64,000 nucleotides of DNA, taken from assembly GCF_000315445.1 (NCBI RefSeq), contig NZ_JH992962.1, positions 1 to 64,000 of the forward strand, read 5' to 3'. Numbering within the stretch: position 1 is the stretch's first letter; each line of letters begins with the position of its first letter. The stretch comes from Alloiococcus otitis ATCC 51267. Lineage in GTDB: Bacteria > Bacillota > Bacilli > Lactobacillales > Carnobacteriaceae_A. The notes under the pieces were generated by a model. That model made no database searches and had not been told where the DNA came from. It saw only the letters and a list, made by a program, of their open reading frames with translations. This document shows, in pieces, positions 1 to 59,157 of the stretch. The position numbers and the translations under genes were made by a program.

Positions 1-62
1 CTTGAAGTGGAAGTGTAGCGATACATGGAGCGGACAAGTACTAATCGGTCGAGGACTTAACC
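1..62 (+). rRNA. 23S ribosomal RNA, 3' end (partial)
   Basis: The window opens inside a 23S rRNA gene. The stretch carrying 'gcggacaagtactaatcggt' followed by 'cgaggacttaacc' is the conserved 3' terminal helix region of Firmicute 23S rRNA. The exact 3' end is estimated from that helix. The 16S and most of the 23S lie outside the window. About 70 bases separate it from the 5S gene and no tRNA is seen there. Confidence 0.93.
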
Positions 63-134
63 ACGCAAGTGAGTAAGTGAGATTTCGGTGGCGTTAGCGA
101 TTCAACTAGTCAGTTTTGAAGGAACAAGGCAAAA

Positions 135-254
135 TGTGTGGTGATGATGGCCAGAAGGACCCACCTGTTCCCATGCCGAACACAGTCGTTAAGCTTCTGA
201 GCGCCGAGGATAATGCAGGGCTTCCCTGTGTGAAAGCCGGACGTTGCCACGCAC
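135..254 (+). rRNA. 5S ribosomal RNA
   Basis: A complete 5S rRNA of about 120 bases. It shows the typical core 'ccacctgttcccatgccgaa' and 'cacagtcgttaagcttctg', and its ends pair (tgtgtgg with ccacgcaca). It follows the 23S 3' end directly, so this is the tail of an rrn operon. No tRNA genes follow before the terminators. A 63-residue reading frame on the opposite strand is a shadow of this gene. Confidence 0.95.
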
Positions 255-729: not shown

Positions 730-1593
730 CTATAAGCGCTTTAATTTGGATTTTTTGATCCTTGGCCATCTGAACTTCGGCACATGTTGCTTCATGGTTT
801 CAAATATAAATCCCCATTGTTTTTCGGACAAATTTCCAACTGTAAGTTCCTTCTTCAGTTGAAGTCCCTTTTTTAAATGTCTAATTTGAGCTTTGGTAAA
901 TATACCCTCTAATGCTAAATCAATAGGTAACTTAGGTTTTTTCATTAGATAATCGGCTAAACCCCAAAAAATTAAGTAATCTTTATAAGCTACAATAGGT
1001 TTAGTTTTCCGAGTTATTTTGATTAATGCGGCATCAACTCTTGGTTTTGGCGAGAAATTATTTTTTGCAATTGTTTTAACATATTGAATATCGAACCACA
1101 TTTTCCATGCAACTACATATGAATCTTTAACAAAATTTGATTTAAATCTTTTGGCTGCTCCTTTTTCTATAATAATTAATCCGCTTTGAAGAGGGCTAGA
1201 AGGTTTAAAGAGAAGCATTTTCATAATCGGTGTTGTAATAGCAAATGGAATGTTTGAGACTACGATATAGGGCTTTCTGGGTAAGGATATTTTTAAAATG
1301 TCTTGTTGAATTATTTTTGTATTTTGCAATTCAAGTTGCTGTAGTTCGCTTATATATTTTTTATCGTTTTCAACTGCGAGAACCCTTCCTGCCTGATTAC
1401 TTAAAACTTTCGTAAGTGCCCCTTTACCAGCTCCCAATTCTAATACCAGGTCACTTTTTGAAATGTGAGCAAGGTTTACAATATCCTTTATCATTTTTTT
1501 ATTATGCAACATGTGCTGTCCGCTAAAGTTAGGTGAATTCCCATTTCTGAATTTTTTGCTGTGATACTTATTTTTTCTTTTTCTCTTTGTCAT
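730..1593 (-). CDS. erm: Erm-family 23S rRNA (adenine-N6)-dimethyltransferase
   Basis: The family transfers methyl groups from S-adenosylmethionine to A2058 of 23S rRNA and so blocks macrolides, lincosamides and streptogramin B. The 287-residue protein has the basic N-terminal tail, the segment SPNFSGQH (about 20-27), the SAM motif ELGAGKG (52-58) and the catalytic SNIPF motif (113-117). The long basic N-terminus and GQH segment resemble the ErmD/J/K-type lineage of Gram-positive bacteria more than ErmB or ErmC; this comparison is from memory. The gene is much more A+T-rich than the purine genes, stands alone, and lies between an rRNA operon and housekeeping genes, which suggests acquisition, though a resident lineage-specific copy is possible. 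A hairpin with a T-run between promoter and start suggests inducible control. No terminator was found downstream. Confidence 0.9.
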   Translation of the reverse strand: MTKRKRKNKYHSKKFRNGNSPNFSGQHMLHNKKMIKDIVNLAHISKSDLVLELGAGKGALTKVLSNQAGRVLAVENDKKYISELQQLELQNTKIIQQDILKISLPRKPYIVVSNIPFAITTPIMKMLLFKPSSPLQSGLIIIEKGAAKRFKSNFVKDSYVVAWKMWFDIQYVKTIAKNNFSPKPRVDAALIKITRKTKPIVAYKDYLIFWGLADYLMKKPKLPIDLALEGIFTKAQIRHLKKGLQLKKELTVGNLSEKQWGFIFETMKQHVPKFRWPRIKKSKLKRL

Positions 1594-3392: not shown

Positions 3393-3726
3393 TCCTTATA
3401 ATTTTTTTAACTACCGTTTTATTATAAAGATAATAAGAATACAAAACAAATGTATAAGGTCAAAGGAAAGGATTTTTACGAAATTTATACTCTTTTGTTA
3501 CAGATCTAATCATAACCCAATGAAAAGAGGCCTGTTATAGGGATTTTTTATAAGTTTAACTTGTGAATAATGAAAAATAGTAATGAGAATCGTCGATAAA
3601 TATAATTAATGTTATATTTATTTATCTAATAGCTGTGATTAATTATTTGCTAAAAAAGTTTATAAATGATGAGGACTAGCAAGTTGAAAATCAAATGTGA
3701 CAGAAAAATGATGTCTGTTTTTATAA
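3393..3726. other. Intergenic region between divergent channel and ccpN genes
   Basis: A+T-rich, non-coding sequence holding the promoter region of the minus-strand channel gene and the upstream part of the ccpN promoter. No RNA gene or further hairpin of note was seen. Confidence 0.4.
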
Positions 3727-3772
3727 ATATGTCATAATATATATTGACTTAACCATAATTATGACATATTAT
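3727..3772 (+). promoter_or_regulatory. ccpN promoter with paired CcpN-like operators
   Basis: The promoter has TTGACT (3744-3749), a 17-base spacer and TATTAT (3767-3772). Around it lies a perfect 12-base inverted repeat, ATATGTCATAAT at 3727-3738 and ATTATGACATAT at 3758-3769. The box contains TATGTCATAAT, which differs at one position from the CcpN consensus TRTGHYATAYW as I recall it for Bacillus subtilis. The boxes lie 31 bases apart, about three helical turns, and the second overlaps the -10 element. This suggests autorepression by the product of the next gene. Confidence 0.65.
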
Positions 3773-3810
3773 ATAATTGTTTAATATGTTATATTGCAAA
3801 GGAGGAGCCA

Positions 3811-4440
3811 ATGAAGCTAAGTGACCGGCAGAAAAAAATTATTAACTTGGTTAAAGAACATGAGCCGATTACGGGAGACCAAATTTCGGACAAGCTAGGC
3901 CTGTCTAAGCCGACTATTCGGCCTGATCTCTCACTTCTGTCCTCAGCTGAGATCTTGATTGCCAAACCCAAGGTCGGCTACTTGTACAACCAGCATTATG
4001 TCACTCCTTTTATCATCAGTGACATGGCCCAGCGTCCGGTAGAAGAAGTCATGAAGGTTCCCATCATTGTAGACAAGGAAACTCCTATTATAGAGGCCAT
4101 CAACCGAGTCTTCCTAGAAGATGCAGGTTCTCTTTATGTGGCAGATAAGAGCCAGCTATTGGGGATTGTCTCCCGCAAGGACCTCCTGAAAGCAGCTATG
4201 ATGGGCACAGATGCCCAGCAGTTGACTGTGAGTTTTGTCATGAGCCGGGCACCTAATTTGGTCACGGTTAACCACACTGATTCCTTGGCAGCTGCCTGTA
4301 AAAAATTGGTCCTCCATAAGGTTAATAGCCTGCCCGTTTTGGAGTATGACCAAGAGACTGGCCAGGAAAAAATTGTCGGCAAACTGTCCAAGACGGTTAT
4401 AACCAATGTCTTTTACTCGATTTTAGAAGGTGAACAATAA
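3811..4440 (+). CDS. ccpN: CcpN-type transcriptional repressor (HTH plus two CBS domains)
   Basis: The protein of 209 residues has an N-terminal winged helix-turn-helix (about 1-60, 'GLSKPTIRPDLS') and a CBS domain pair (about 75-205). In B. subtilis CcpN represses gluconeogenic genes and senses the ATP/ADP state through its CBS domains. The start is supported by AAGGAGG 7 bases upstream. The gene is 12 bases from the PPDK regulatory protein gene, the same ccpN-yqfL pairing as in Bacillus, and ppdK follows. This makes the three genes one unit controlling flux between pyruvate and phosphoenolpyruvate. The upstream inverted repeat suggests autoregulation. Confidence 0.9.
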   Translation: MKLSDRQKKIINLVKEHEPITGDQISDKLGLSKPTIRPDLSLLSSAEILIAKPKVGYLYNQHYVTPFIISDMAQRPVEEVMKVPIIVDKETPIIEAINRVFLEDAGSLYVADKSQLLGIVSRKDLLKAAMMGTDAQQLTVSFVMSRAPNLVTVNHTDSLAAACKKLVLHKVNSLPVLEYDQETGQEKIVGKLSKTVITNVFYSILEGEQ

Positions 4441-4452
4441 GGAGGTAGCAAG

Positions 4453-5271
4453 GTGACCGAATTATCCATTTATGTCTTATCGGATTCAATCGGGGACACG
4501 GCCCAGCAAGTGGTCCGGTCCATTACCGCTCAATTTCCCCAAGTTAATTTCAAATTGCGGCGTTTTTCAAATGTCCTAACTAAGAAAGCTATTGACCAGA
4601 TTTTTAAGTTGATGGACCCGGCTAAAAGTAACCTGGTCTTTTACACCTTTGTCGAAGAGAGCCTGGCCGACTATATGAAGGTTCAACTGAACCAGGTTGG
4701 CATTCGGGGGATTGATATCGTAAGCCCTGGCCTCCAGGCGATAGAGCTTTTAACAGGACAGGAGCCAGATAAGGAGGCTGGCCGGATCCGGAAAACGGAT
4801 GATGAATATTTTGACCGGATCAAGGCCATTGAATTTGCTGTCCGCTATGACGATGGTCAGGGACCTCATGGTATTTTAAAGGCTGACTTGACTTTGATTG
4901 GGGTTTCTCGTACTTCCAAGACCCCCTTGTCCATGTACTTGGCCAACAAAGGTTATAAGGTAGCCAACATCCCCCTTTTCCCAGAGAATAAACCGCCCAA
5001 AGAGCTCTTCCAAGTTTCGCCTTCAAAGGTAGTGGGTTTGACCAATAGTGTCAACTACCTGAACCAGGTTCGGAAGGAGCGGTTGAAGTCTTATGGCATG
5101 TCCACCCAGTCCCGGTATGTTGACAAAAAGCGAATTTTAGAAGAACTCCAGTACGGGGAAGAAATCATGAAGCAAATCGGTTGTTTAAAGATAAATGTTG
5201 AAAGTAAGGCCATTGAAGAAACCGCTGCCGAGATCCTCCAGTACCTAGAAGGACTCCAGCAAAAAAGATAA
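4453..5271 (+). CDS. yqfL: Pyruvate, phosphate dikinase regulatory protein (kinase/pyrophosphorylase)
   Basis: The family (DUF299) inactivates PPDK by ADP-dependent phosphorylation of the threonine next to the catalytic histidine, and reactivates it by phosphate-dependent dephosphorylation. The 272-residue protein carries the P-loop-like GVSRTSKTPLS at 150-160 and the N-terminal VLSDSIGDTA signature. The start is GTG, preceded by AAGGAGG. The gene stands directly before ppdK (24-base gap), whose TSH motif is the expected target. Its target could instead be a PEP synthase in other organisms; the adjacent ppdK makes PPDK the natural substrate here. Confidence 0.92.
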   Translation: MTELSIYVLSDSIGDTAQQVVRSITAQFPQVNFKLRRFSNVLTKKAIDQIFKLMDPAKSNLVFYTFVEESLADYMKVQLNQVGIRGIDIVSPGLQAIELLTGQEPDKEAGRIRKTDDEYFDRIKAIEFAVRYDDGQGPHGILKADLTLIGVSRTSKTPLSMYLANKGYKVANIPLFPENKPPKELFQVSPSKVVGLTNSVNYLNQVRKERLKSYGMSTQSRYVDKKRILEELQYGEEIMKQIGCLKINVESKAIEETAAEILQYLEGLQQKR

Positions 5272-5295
5272 AAAGCAAAGACAAGGGAGTTTAGT

Positions 5296-7911
5296 ATGCA
5301 ATTAGTTTACAACTTTAAAGAAGGTAACCGTAACATGAAAGCCCTTTTAGGTGGGAAGGGGGCTAACCTAGCTGAGATGACCAGCCTTGGCTTGAATGTC
5401 CCACCGGGCTTTACCCTAACTACTGAAGCTTGCCAGCGTTACAACCAGGACCCAGAATCTGGCTTGTGGAAGGAATTAAAGGACGGGGTTTTAGAAGAAG
5501 TTAAAAAGCTGGAAGCGGAAACAGGTAAAGGCTTTGGTGATGAGACCCATCCCCTCCTCTTTTCAGTCCGGTCCGGGGCGGCTGAATCCATGCCAGGTAT
5601 GATGGATACAGTTTTAAACTTAGGCTTGAATGACCAATCAGTGGCAGGACTGGCTAAGTCGACTGAAAATGACCGCTTTGCCTATGACAGTTACCGCCGT
5701 TTTATCCAAATGTTTGCTGATGTTGTCAAGGGCGTCCCCCTAGCTCAATTTGAGTACCTCCTAGAAGAGCGCAAAGAAAGCAAGGGGGTAGAAGAAGATA
5801 CAGACCTAGATGCCCAAGATATGGTCCAGCTTGTCCAAGCTTACAAGGTGTGCTACCAAGAAACGGTAGGGGAAAGCTTCCCACAAGACCCCATGGACCA
5901 ATTGTTTGAGGCAGTGGAAGCCGTTTTTGCCTCTTGGAACAACGACAGGGCTGTTTTATACCGGGAAATCAATGAAATTACAGGCCTTTTAGGGACAGCT
6001 GTCAACGTTCAAACCATGGTATTTGGCAATATGGGGCCGGATTCGGGAACTGGGGTCATGTTTACCCGGAACCCAGCAAATGGTCAGAGAGAACTTTTCG
6101 GCGAATACTTGATCAATGCCCAAGGGGAGGATGTGGTAGCCGGTGTCCGGACTCCGAAAGCGATTGCCAGTTTAAATGACGACATGCCAGACCTCTATCA
6201 AGAATTAGAGACTGTGGCTCAAAAGTTGGAAAGTCATTATTTAGACATGCAAGATATTGAATTCACTATTGAAAATAGAAATTTATACCTGCTTCAAACC
6301 CGGACTGGTAAGCGGACCGCCCAGGCTGCTATCAAGATTGCCAATGACCTCTTCAAGGAAGGGCTTATCACGGCCGAAGACAGTGTTACCAAGCTAACCA
6401 GCCAGCAACTGGAGACCCTTATGCACCCCACCTTTGACCCGGAAGCCCTAGACCAAGCAGACCAAATTGGTCATGGCCTAGCTGCCTCACCAGGAGCAGC
6501 AGTTGGCCGGGTTTGCTTTTCAGTTGAGGCAGTTGAAAGCACTGTCCAGGCAGGGGATTCTGCTATTTTAGTCCGCCGGGAAACCTCGCCTGAAGATTTG
6601 GCAGGCATGGTTAAGGCTACTGGTGTTTTAACCTCTAGAGGAGGGATGACCTCCCACGCTGCAGTCGTTGCTCGGGGGATGGGCAAGTGTTGTGTGGCAG
6701 GTTGTTCAGATATAAAAGTGGACGGCGACCACGGGACCTTCACCTACCAGGGGGGGCAAGTCCAAGAAGGGGACTATATTTCCATCGATGGCTCCACTGG
6801 TTCAGTCTACCAAGGCCAAGTTGCCATGAGTGGTGCCTTGATGGATGACCAGTATGATGCCTTTATGGATCGAGTTAATGATGCTAAAAGAATGGCAGTC
6901 CGAACCAATGCAGATACACCAAAAGATGTCCAAGCCGCTTTAGACTTTGGGGCGGAAGGAATCGGTCTAGTCCGGACTGAGCATATGTTCTTTGGCCAAG
7001 GCCGAATTAGCGAGGTGCGGAAGATGATCCTAGCCAAGTCAAGGGAAGACCGGCAAGTTTATGTGGACCGCCTCTACCAATTCCAGAAAGAGGACTTTGT
7101 CGGCATCTACCAGGTAACCCAGTCCCTACCCGTTACTGTCCGTTTACTAGACCCACCTCTCCACGAATTTTTACCCCATGAAAACCAGGCTATCCAGGCA
7201 ATTGCCCAGGACATGGATTTAACCCAGGAAGAAGTGGCCAAGCGGATCGAGGTCCTACAAGAAGTCAACCCCATGCTAGGTCACCGGGGAGTTCGGCTGG
7301 GGATTAGCTATCCTGAAGTCACTGCCATGCAAGTTTCTGCCATCATCGATGCGGCTATTGAAGTCAAACAAGACAAGGGCTATGATATTAAGCCCGAAAT
7401 TATGGTGCCTTTGGTAGGCCAAATCCCAGAATTCAAACAGGTTAAGGACCAAATTGAAGTTCTGGTCCAAGGCCGGCTGGAAGAGGCCGAAATTGACCTG
7501 GACTATAGCATTGGAACCATGATTGAAATCCCACGGGCTTGCTTGATTGCTGACCAATTGGCCCAGGAAGCTGACTTCTTTAGCTTTGGGACCAATGACT
7601 TAACCCAGATGACTTTCGGTTATTCCCGGGATGATGCAGGAAGTTTTATCCCAACTTATATCGAAAATGACATTATGGAAGAAGATCCCTTTAAGACTAT
7701 TGATCAAGAAGGTGTTGGGGCTATGGTTAAGCTTGCTGTCGACAAGGCTCGGTCCGTTAAGCCAGACATTAAGTTAGGTATCTGCGGGGAGCATGGGGGA
7801 GATGCCAAGTCCATCCATTTCTTTGATTCCTTAGGTTTAGATTATGTATCTTGTTCACCCTACCGTGTTCCAATTGCTCGTTTAGCAGCAGCCCAGGCCA
7901 GTCAAGAGTAA
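5296..7911 (+). CDS. ppdK: Pyruvate, phosphate dikinase
   Basis: The enzyme interconverts pyruvate, ATP and phosphate with phosphoenolpyruvate, AMP and pyrophosphate. The 871-residue length is normal. The N-terminal nucleotide-binding domain starts with 'GGKGANLAEM'. The swivelling phosphohistidine domain has GGMTSHAAVVAR with Thr452, Ser453 and catalytic His454. The C-terminal PEP/pyruvate barrel ends with 'CGEHGGD'. Thr452 is the expected regulatory site for the preceding gene's product. The gene is last in the ccpN unit and ends at a strong terminator. With the class III fbp at 57247 it supports a gluconeogenic capacity. Confidence 0.96.
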   Translation: MQLVYNFKEGNRNMKALLGGKGANLAEMTSLGLNVPPGFTLTTEACQRYNQDPESGLWKELKDGVLEEVKKLEAETGKGFGDETHPLLFSVRSGAAESMPGMMDTVLNLGLNDQSVAGLAKSTENDRFAYDSYRRFIQMFADVVKGVPLAQFEYLLEERKESKGVEEDTDLDAQDMVQLVQAYKVCYQETVGESFPQDPMDQLFEAVEAVFASWNNDRAVLYREINEITGLLGTAVNVQTMVFGNMGPDSGTGVMFTRNPANGQRELFGEYLINAQGEDVVAGVRTPKAIASLNDDMPDLYQELETVAQKLESHYLDMQDIEFTIENRNLYLLQTRTGKRTAQAAIKIANDLFKEGLITAEDSVTKLTSQQLETLMHPTFDPEALDQADQIGHGLAASPGAAVGRVCFSVEAVESTVQAGDSAILVRRETSPEDLAGMVKATGVLTSRGGMTSHAAVVARGMGKCCVAGCSDIKVDGDHGTFTYQGGQVQEGDYISIDGSTGSVYQGQVAMSGALMDDQYDAFMDRVNDAKRMAVRTNADTPKDVQAALDFGAEGIGLVRTEHMFFGQGRISEVRKMILAKSREDRQVYVDRLYQFQKEDFVGIYQVTQSLPVTVRLLDPPLHEFLPHENQAIQAIAQDMDLTQEEVAKRIEVLQEVNPMLGHRGVRLGISYPEVTAMQVSAIIDAAIEVKQDKGYDIKPEIMVPLVGQIPEFKQVKDQIEVLVQGRLEEAEIDLDYSIGTMIEIPRACLIADQLAQEADFFSFGTNDLTQMTFGYSRDDAGSFIPTYIENDIMEEDPFKTIDQEGVGAMVKLAVDKARSVKPDIKLGICGEHGGDAKSIHFFDSLGLDYVSCSPYRVPIARLAAAQASQE

Positions 7912-7934
7912 AAATTTTCATTAATATAAGTCCA

Positions 7935-7967
7935 AGTCCAGTCGGTTCAACCGGCTGGACTTTTTTA
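7935..7967 (+). terminator. ppdK terminator
   Basis: The stem AAGTCCAGTCGGTT pairs with ACCGGCTGGACTT and is followed by a T-run, 23 bases after the ppdK stop codon. Confidence 0.9.
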
Positions 7968-57246: not shown

Positions 57247-59157
57247 TTGGAACACATAGATATGATGATAAAAGACCGCTTTCCCACTGAGGCTGATGTC
57301 ATTACGGAACTCATCAACCTCCAGGCCATCCAGCAATTGCCCAAGGGGACTGAAATGTACATCAGTGATATACACGGCGAATTTGAAGCCTTTGACCATA
57401 TTTTGCGGATCGGGTCGGGGAATGTAAAAGAGAAAATTATTGACCTTTTTGGCCAATCCTACGATGAAGACAAGGTCAACAAACTGGCCTTGTTTGTGGC
57501 CTACCCGGAATATGCCTTGGACCATGTCCGGCAAAAAGACCTGGAGGATAAGGACCAAGTCCGGAAATTGATCGAAGACTTGATCGGTGTCTTGCGTTTT
57601 GCCTCAGCCAAGTATACCCGGTCCAAGGTGCGGAAGGCCCTGCCAGCTGCCTACCGCTACGTGATTGAGGAACTCTTGTATGCCGACTACTCCCTTCCCC
57701 ATAAGCAAGCCTATGCCTACCAAATTATGGACCAGATTATGACCGTTGGGAAGTTGGAAGACTTCCTCAAACAACTGTCTTTCACCATCCAAGACCTGGT
57801 TATTGACCATATCCATATTGTAGGTGATATTTTTGACCGGGGCCCGGATGCTGACAAGGTGATGGACCGGATTATGGCCCTCCCCTCTGTTGATATCCAG
57901 TGGGGCAACCATGACATGATTTGGATTGGGGCTTACCTAGGGTCCTTGCCCTGTCTTTTGACCCTACTCCGGATCGCCGCCCGGTATAATTACCTATTTG
58001 ATATCGAGCGGTCTTATGGGATCAACCTCCGTCCTTTGTTCTCCTTTGCTAAGAAATACTACCAGGCCAACCCTGTTTTTACTCCTAAGGGTTTGACCGA
58101 CAAGGAGAAGGCTGAGGGAACGACTGAGATGGAGCAAGTCCACCAGGCACTGGCTATTATTCAATTTAAGCTGGAAGAGCAAGTTATCCACCGCCGGCCA
58201 GAATTTGACATGGGCCACCGTTTGTTACTGGAAAATATTGACTTCCAAAATGAGACTGTCCAGGTTGAAGGCCAGACTTACCCCATGGTGGGGTCCTGCT
58301 TCCAAACAGTTGACCCGGCCCATCCCAATGCCTTGACCTCGGATGAAGAAGAAGTGGTCGGGGAGTTGATTTACTCCTTCCAAAACTCCGAAAAAATGAA
58401 AAGACACATGGACTTTTTATTGAGCAAGGGGTCCAATTACCTCATTTACAACAAGCACCTCCTCTTCCATGCTTGCCTGCCCCTAGAAGACAATGGCGAC
58501 TTCATGGCCTTTCAGATAGGTGGTCAGTCTTACCAAGGACGGGCCTTGCTGGACTTTTTCGATGACAAGATCCAAGAGGCAGGCCAAGACAAAAACTCTT
58601 ACACTGACCTAGCAACTGACTTGATTTGGTACCTTTGGTGTGGGCCTAAGTCCCCTCTTTTTGGCAAAAGTAAGATGACAACCTTTGAAAGATACTTTAT
58701 TGAAGACAAGGCTACCCACAAGGAAGAAAAAAATGCCTACTTCAAGCTGAGAGACCGGGAAGAAATAGTAGACCAAGTCTTAAAAGAGTTTGGTTTAACG
58801 GATGAAATTTCGGCTGTCATTAATGGTCACACCCCAGTTAAGGTAAGAAAGGGGGAAGACCCTATTAAGGTGGACCGCAAGTTGTTTGTCATTGACGGAG
58901 GCCTCTCCAAGGCTTACCAGGGGTCGACTGGGATTGCCGGCTACTCCCTCTTGAATAACTCTTTTGGCTTTCAAGTTGTGACCCACCAGACCTTCACCTC
59001 AGTCCAGGACTTATTTAACCGGGGTAGTGACGGCTCTTATGTCAAACGGGTCATTGAAAGTGAGTTGGACCGGGTCAAAATTGCCGGGACCACCATTGGC
59101 AGTGACATCCAAAAGCAAATTGACGGCCTCCAAGCCCACTTAAAAAAATTTTATTAA
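57247..59157 (+). CDS. fbp: Fructose-1,6-bisphosphatase, class III
   Basis: The gluconeogenic phosphatase of Firmicutes. The 636-residue protein has the metallophosphoesterase motifs 'YISDIHGEFEAF', 'GDIFDRGPDADKVM', 'QWGNHDMIWIGA' and 'INGHTPVKVRKGEDPIK'. Length is normal for class III. The start is TTG behind AGAGGTG; an ATG lies five codons further. With ppdK and ccpN it makes up the gluconeogenic side of metabolism. No CcpN-like box was found upstream of it. Confidence 0.95.
   Translation: MEHIDMMIKDRFPTEADVITELINLQAIQQLPKGTEMYISDIHGEFEAFDHILRIGSGNVKEKIIDLFGQSYDEDKVNKLALFVAYPEYALDHVRQKDLEDKDQVRKLIEDLIGVLRFASAKYTRSKVRKALPAAYRYVIEELLYADYSLPHKQAYAYQIMDQIMTVGKLEDFLKQLSFTIQDLVIDHIHIVGDIFDRGPDADKVMDRIMALPSVDIQWGNHDMIWIGAYLGSLPCLLTLLRIAARYNYLFDIERSYGINLRPLFSFAKKYYQANPVFTPKGLTDKEKAEGTTEMEQVHQALAIIQFKLEEQVIHRRPEFDMGHRLLLENIDFQNETVQVEGQTYPMVGSCFQTVDPAHPNALTSDEEEVVGELIYSFQNSEKMKRHMDFLLSKGSNYLIYNKHLLFHACLPLEDNGDFMAFQIGGQSYQGRALLDFFDDKIQEAGQDKNSYTDLATDLIWYLWCGPKSPLFGKSKMTTFERYFIEDKATHKEEKNAYFKLRDREEIVDQVLKEFGLTDEISAVINGHTPVKVRKGEDPIKVDRKLFVIDGGLSKAYQGSTGIAGYSLLNNSFGFQVVTHQTFTSVQDLFNRGSDGSYVKRVIESELDRVKIAGTTIGSDIQKQIDGLQAHLKKFY

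Follow-up and report, generated by a model that had tools for sequence, protein, structure and literature searches.

In Bacillus subtilis the regulator CcpN acts at the sr1 promoter through two boxes, one located just upstream of the -35 element and the other in the spacer; it requires ATP and a slightly acid pH, and blocks promoter escape via the alpha subunit of RNA polymerase (PMC8464778). For lactic acid bacteria, a reconstruction from 2013 gives ccpN, ppdK and fbp as predicted CcpN targets in Lactobacillales (PMC3616900). Control of ccpN and ppdK by CcpN in this order was thus already predicted, and the locus described here is a further well-formed instance. In Listeria monocytogenes sigma-L is reported to raise ccpN and yqfL (PMC8066629), so that inputs besides CcpN are possible.

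Gene cluster and promoter region of ccpN

The sequence studied, here called the window, comprises positions 1-64,000 of contig NZ_JH992962.1 of Alloiococcus otitis ATCC 51267, whose assembly amounts to 1.8 Mb. It carries a cluster of ccpN, a gene for a YqfL-type PPDK regulatory protein (PDRP) and ppdK (Table 1). Gaps of 12 nt between ccpN and the PDRP gene and 24 nt between the latter and ppdK suggest that the three genes (3811-7911) are co-transcribed. The operon likely ends at a hairpin downstream of ppdK, a consensus match of a kind found 5 times in the scanned region and 6.6 times in shuffles.

The ccpN product scored below the curated equivalog cut-off of NF053704 (260 bits) while covering profile positions 1-206 of 208, and this remained its best-scoring family. 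Pfam HTH_11 was found at residues 6-57, followed by CBS in two stretches; the CBS part aligns with the YqzB chain 3fv6 across 70-208, and the position of the yqfL/PDRP gene directly behind ccpN agrees with the gene order of CcpN. The protein is therefore described as CcpN-like and predicted to work like CcpN. An AlphaFold model (mean pLDDT 90.9) places helix 33-45 after the turn that follows helix 22-29, and in this model the recognition helix starts at residue 33, with K33-P34. An alignment of 29 CcpN proteins shows no variation at G118, S121-D124 and G190, which would fit nucleotide sensing by the CBS part.

Table 1. Features of the window (strand + is the forward strand of the contig).
Feature	Position	Strand	Basis or remark
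Stretch of 62 bases	2-63		95% match to Listeria records
5S rRNA	137-252		
Erm-type 23S rRNA methyltransferase gene	730-1593	-	238.4 bits, NCBIfam Erm cut-off 212
Candidate CcpN box 1, TATGACATATT	3726-3736	-	exact consensus match; perfect inverted repeat with box 2; ends 7 nt before -35 TTGACT
Sigma-A-type promoter(s)	3744-3777	+	consensus matches only
Candidate CcpN box 2, TATGACATATT	3760-3770	+	exact consensus match; in spacer or overlapping -10
Probable CcpN box 3, TATGTTATATT	3785-3795	+	exact consensus match; weakest of the three
ccpN	3811-4440	+	winged HTH plus two CBS domains; NF053704 222.9 bits, E 2.7e-66
PDRP (YqfL-type PPDK regulatory protein) gene	4453-5271	+	NF003742 301.1 bits, above cut-off 225
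ppdK, pyruvate phosphate dikinase	5296-7911	+	TIGR01828 1332.7 bits, above cut-off 843.45
Terminator-like hairpin, 13 pairs, T run	7934-7962	+	consensus match only
fbp	57247-59157		

At the left end of the window, positions 1-252 probably form the end of an rRNA operon. An Erm-type gene lies between this end and ccpN, and a plasmid search with the window returned only a short match, located at the same left end.

In front of ccpN-PDRP-ppdK there is a perfect inverted repeat with arms AATATGTCATAAT (3726-3738) and ATTATGACATATT (3758-3770). A preliminary description of this DNA had given its sequence, position and perfection correctly, but the arms are 13 bp long and not 12. Each arm includes a 9-bp core, TATGTCATA and TATGACATA, with centres at 3732 and 3764; the offset of 31 bases given earlier is the start-to-start distance of the 12-mers, and the core centres are 32 bp apart. 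As the cores are palindromic except for the middle base, inverted and direct repeats are indistinguishable by the cores alone. The B. subtilis CcpN consensus is TRTGHYATAYW. Read outward, both arms match it without a mismatch; the single mismatch per arm previously counted stems from the other orientation. The core centres of boxes 2 and 3 are 25 bp apart, and box 3 would sit near the expected transcription start. In two relatives (L045 and L169) the box is followed, 21 bp downstream, by another with one mismatch.

Two promoters can be drawn in this region, namely TTGACT (3744-3749) and TATTAT (3767-3772), or TTAACC (3749-3754) and TATAAT (3772-3777), each with 17 nt between the elements. Box 1 closely precedes the -35 element, and box 2 overlaps the -10 element of the first option or sits in the spacer of the second. 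The arrangement, with one site in front of -35 and the other in the spacer, is that given for sr1 in PMC8464778. The register of box 2 relative to the -10 region is shared with Listeria, Carnobacteriaceae and others.

The repeat by itself is only moderately unlikely, since dinucleotide shuffling of the 418-bp intergenic stretch produced a perfect 13-bp inverted pair with a gap of up to 60 in 15 of 3000 trials. Exact matches to TRTGHYATAYW number three in the 64 kb, all within 70 bp at the ccpN promoter, against 0.9 expected, and 8 of 100 shuffles reach three. The paired pattern TATGHYATA-N15-30-TRTGHYATA is absent elsewhere in the 1.8-Mb assembly (reversed control, 0). The scan for further boxes that had been suggested thus found the pair unique to the ccpN promoter, but gave little or no excess for a box combined with TATAAT (73 matches, 61 in the reversed control). 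Single boxes with at most one mismatch were found 32 times genome-wide and 16 times in the control, and by a mechanical test 21 of 30 inspected matches fall inside an ORF of at least 80 codons.

A third exact copy of TATGTCATAAT, the only one in the genome away from the ccpN promoter (L015 1501-1511, that is G000:C3:154062-154072), overlaps a second box-like stretch and is closely followed by the ribosome site of a D-2-hydroxyacid dehydrogenase gene. This gene is a possible second CcpN target, but the match alone is not above chance, as about three such 11-mers are expected genome-wide by an estimate from rough base composition. The gene fbp was also considered as a second target and was rejected, no exact box being present in front of it.

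Related boxes upstream of ccpN in other bacteria

The locus set consisted of 80 loci, 60 further loci of the same order and the window, 141 in all, reduced to 136 by removing 5 duplicate upstream regions. Upstream stretches of 160 bp were used, or the whole intergenic stretch where loci were divergent. The gene orders were ccpN-PDRP-ppdK, ppdK followed by ccpN-PDRP, ppdK divergent from ccpN-PDRP, and ccpN-PDRP without ppdK; in many Clostridia the order was ccpN-ppdK, with PDRP missing between. Groups A-D were assigned by gene order, A and the Clostridia-rich D being separated by a hand list of record names.

A motif finder run for each gene-order group without the consensus as input gave a CcpN-like box as top motif in three of the four groups, namely TGTGTCATACTAT in 35 ccpN-first loci, TAAGACGTATTAT in 24 loci with ppdK before ccpN and AATGTGACACATA in 17 divergent loci. 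Conservation in relatives, which had been named as a check on the boxes, in this way supports the reading. For the 60 loci of the Clostridia-rich group the finder gave a motif resembling a ribosome site and not the CcpN box. Two patterns, an A-type box (TRTGHYAYAYW) and a G-type box (TDDKAYGYAYT), were drawn up after viewing the first locus set; the exact A-type box was present in 26 of the 60 Clostridia-rich loci, against 2.5 in shuffles.

Presence of the box was related to presence of ppdK, in counts that all ignore kinship. Among ccpN-first loci from this order, to which Halolactibacillus of the Bacillaceae was added, the A-type box occurred in 26/26 with ppdK behind and 2/9 without; in a held-out set of 40 loci the figures for ccpN-first loci were 4/4 and 1/4. 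In the Clostridia-rich group the exact A-type box was present in 26/56 loci with ppdK and 0/4 without, so that about half of the ppdK operons there lack it. For Bacilli outside the order, sampled at about one locus per genus, 73 rows less 6 superseded left 67 loci, with one ccpN-alone locus counted among those lacking ppdK, and a box was found in 22 of 25 ccpN operons with ppdK and 5 of 42 without. With the first twenty loci and six genomes retrieved a second time omitted, which leaves genomes first met after the test was fixed, the values were 16/19 and 4/28 (Fisher 2.4e-6, kinship ignored). Restriction of the Bacilli to loci with an upstream gap of at least 100 bp, by a crude ORF measure, gave 14/16 and 3/21, with equal mean G+C.

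CcpN and PPDK also occur together. Of 395 genomes of the order, 163 had both, 220 neither, 8 CcpN alone and 4 PPDK alone, so that 12 were discordant. Boxes track ppdK more than ccpN, and autocontrol therefore looks like a by-product of ppdK control. In the family of the window (f1, 25 genomes), CcpN at E below 1e-15 was met only in its own genome and G010, and PPDK in G000, G007, G010 and G016.

The physiology of the organism is compatible with ppdK as the controlled gene. ATP-PEPCK was not found in the genome (97% complete) and one GAPDH was found, with no second; the B. subtilis targets pckA and gapB are hence without counterpart, ppdK is a plausible target, and PPDK is likely the route from pyruvate to PEP.

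The spacing between boxes was surveyed over 60 adjacent distances in 116 loci. It was 28 bp in 18 of the 60, all Listeriaceae, and 20-21 or 32-33 bp in 17 of the remaining 42. A separation of about three helical turns is therefore common but not required. The placing of both boxes on one face of the helix, as proposed earlier, agrees with the distance at the window, but as a general rule it was rejected by the Listeriaceae. Outside the order, a palindrome AGTATATACTA precedes a box-like AGTATRNCA by 19-21 nt in 18 of 20 loci, a centre distance of about 32-33 bp as worked out by hand. The 160 bp before ccpN contain the palindrome in 20 of the 67 loci (L269, L270, L274, L288, L290, L292, L294-L301, L304, L314, L316, L317, L322 and L334), of which 16 have ppdK in the operon, and it may combine a promoter with a partner operator.

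Residue 33 of CcpN and position 7 of the boxes

Of the 209 columns of the CcpN alignment, residue 33 best separated the group with ppdK before ccpN from the other two, and residue 34 ranked third. Arginine at this position goes with A, and lysine with G, at operator position 7. With group D excluded from the counts, R33 loci of the first set had an A-type box in 40/46 and a G-type box in 4/46, while for K33 loci the values were 1/28 and 24/28; both loci with H33 had neither type. The held-out loci, drawn from the same genera as the first set, gave 12/13 A-type and 1/13 G-type for R33, 0/24 and 18/24 for K33, and 0/3 and 1/3 for H33.

A tree built from the CBS part of 116 loci shows 6 changes of residue 33 and 5 of box type. 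Among independent pairs on this tree, two agree, none opposes and one shows no difference; the result is not significant, the independent events being too few for the covariation to reach significance. The covariation thus supports CcpN as the binder of the boxes, as judged from sequence, and is no proof of it.

The window is the single K33 locus with A-type boxes among 52 (28 of the first set and 24 held out), combining K33-P34 with three A-type boxes. In the tree its CcpN, on a long branch, falls among 12 proteins; the other 11 are all R33, eight of these having only A-type boxes and three having A- and G-type boxes together. It would appear that either K33 alone does not set the operator base or the window is in transition.

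For genomes in which PPDK and ccpN are separated, the PPDK promoter itself was inspected. Where PDRP does not precede PPDK, a box of the matching type was present in 3/3 R33 or K33 genomes: an A-type box in G128 and G054 (R33) and two G-type boxes in G161 (K33). For the two H33 genomes, G390 has an A-type box at -100 and G102 has no box at the PPDK promoter. In G114 (K33), where PPDK stands behind a PDRP gene, no box was found in the stretch examined, directly upstream of PPDK. Four genomes have PPDK without CcpN; the PPDK promoter of one, G007, has no box, and the others are G016, G057 and G234, two of which belong to assemblies 71 and 85% complete. In family f9, eight loci with PPDK nearby (L348-L355) encode a CcpN whose residue 33 is V, I, L or M; upstream of PPDK the A-type box was found in 0/8 and the G-type in 2/8, and a further operator type is perhaps present.

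Interpretation and comparison with known systems

It is highly probable, on the comparisons above, that the two boxes, and probably the third near +1, are CcpN operators governing ccpN-PDRP-ppdK. The incomplete presence of the exact box in the Clostridia-rich group and the co-existence of K33 and A-type boxes in the window speak against it, as do the few independent events behind the covariation, the two H33 loci with neither box type, the lack of an exact box at fbp and the protein score below the CcpN equivalog cut-off. The departure of the window from the residue-33 rule would also favour the boxes serving as operators for a different regulator, one that by coincidence governs ppdK operons. 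This is unlikely, because the boxes match the CcpN consensus, were recovered with ccpN in three gene-order groups and outside the order, have a base type that goes with the CcpN recognition-helix residue, and were missing from the one CcpN-free PPDK promoter examined.

A box upstream of the -35 element could support activation, but the second, in the spacer or on the -10 element, occupies a repressing position; activation by CcpN is therefore very unlikely, as is the related case of CcpN controlling ccpN only with ppdK on an internal promoter, against which stand the short distances between the three genes and the rarity of boxes in Bacilli where ppdK is missing. A chance inverted repeat in AT-rich DNA can hardly be credited: pairs of this length do arise in shuffles at the frequency given above, but similar boxes lie at similar places in relatives.

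For these candidate operators, we infer binding, repression rather than activation, and cooperativity at this promoter. CcpN would bind the TATGACATA cores via its winged helix, the first core in front of -35 and the second in the spacer or on -10. By analogy with B. subtilis, the signal for the window CcpN may be ATP and pH, that is the energy state; the CBS domains would sense a glycolytic, high-ATP state, in which CcpN holds down the ccpN-PDRP-ppdK promoter. When gluconeogenesis is needed, CcpN would release the DNA, and PPDK (converting pyruvate to PEP), PDRP and CcpN itself would rise, with PDRP adjusting PPDK activity. The earlier proposal that CcpN represses its own operon including ppdK agrees with the comparative evidence and with the sr1-like layout, with the change that autocontrol appears secondary to control of ppdK.

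A wider reading is put forward only tentatively. CcpN of Lactobacillales might be a dedicated PPDK switch, kept or lost with ppdK, with the boxes moving with ppdK; the operator code might have turned over more than once via residue 33, and the K33 protein on A-type boxes in the window could be an intermediate or dual-specificity state before an operator change. In such a switch R33 might read ..CATA/..CACA and K33 might read ..CGTA.

The locus offers a testable rule on self-control by a central-metabolism repressor, expected where ppdK belongs to the same operon, and suggests how CcpN can remain useful in bacteria that lack gapB and pckA. Residue 33 and operator base 7 form a natural protein-DNA covariation set for a change of repressor specificity. 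In the part of the open literature searched, no mention was met of the tie between box and ppdK outside Lactobacillales or of the residue-33 covariation.

As in the prediction for Lactobacillales (PMC3616900), ccpN and ppdK are predicted CcpN targets here, whereas fbp lacks an exact box in this genome. EF1025 of Enterococcus faecalis resembles the window protein in having an HTH plus two CBS domains over 209 residues, and ppdK apparently adjoins its gene, a flanking primer being named ppdkF; it was studied as a DivIVA partner, and the available part of that paper describes no operator (PMC7028823). Compared with B. subtilis CcpN at sr1, gapB and pckA, as given in PMC8464778 and PMC7028823, the window has the two-site layout of sr1, a similar consensus and the HTH-CBS-CBS protein, but the predicted target here is the regulator's own gene cluster with ppdK.
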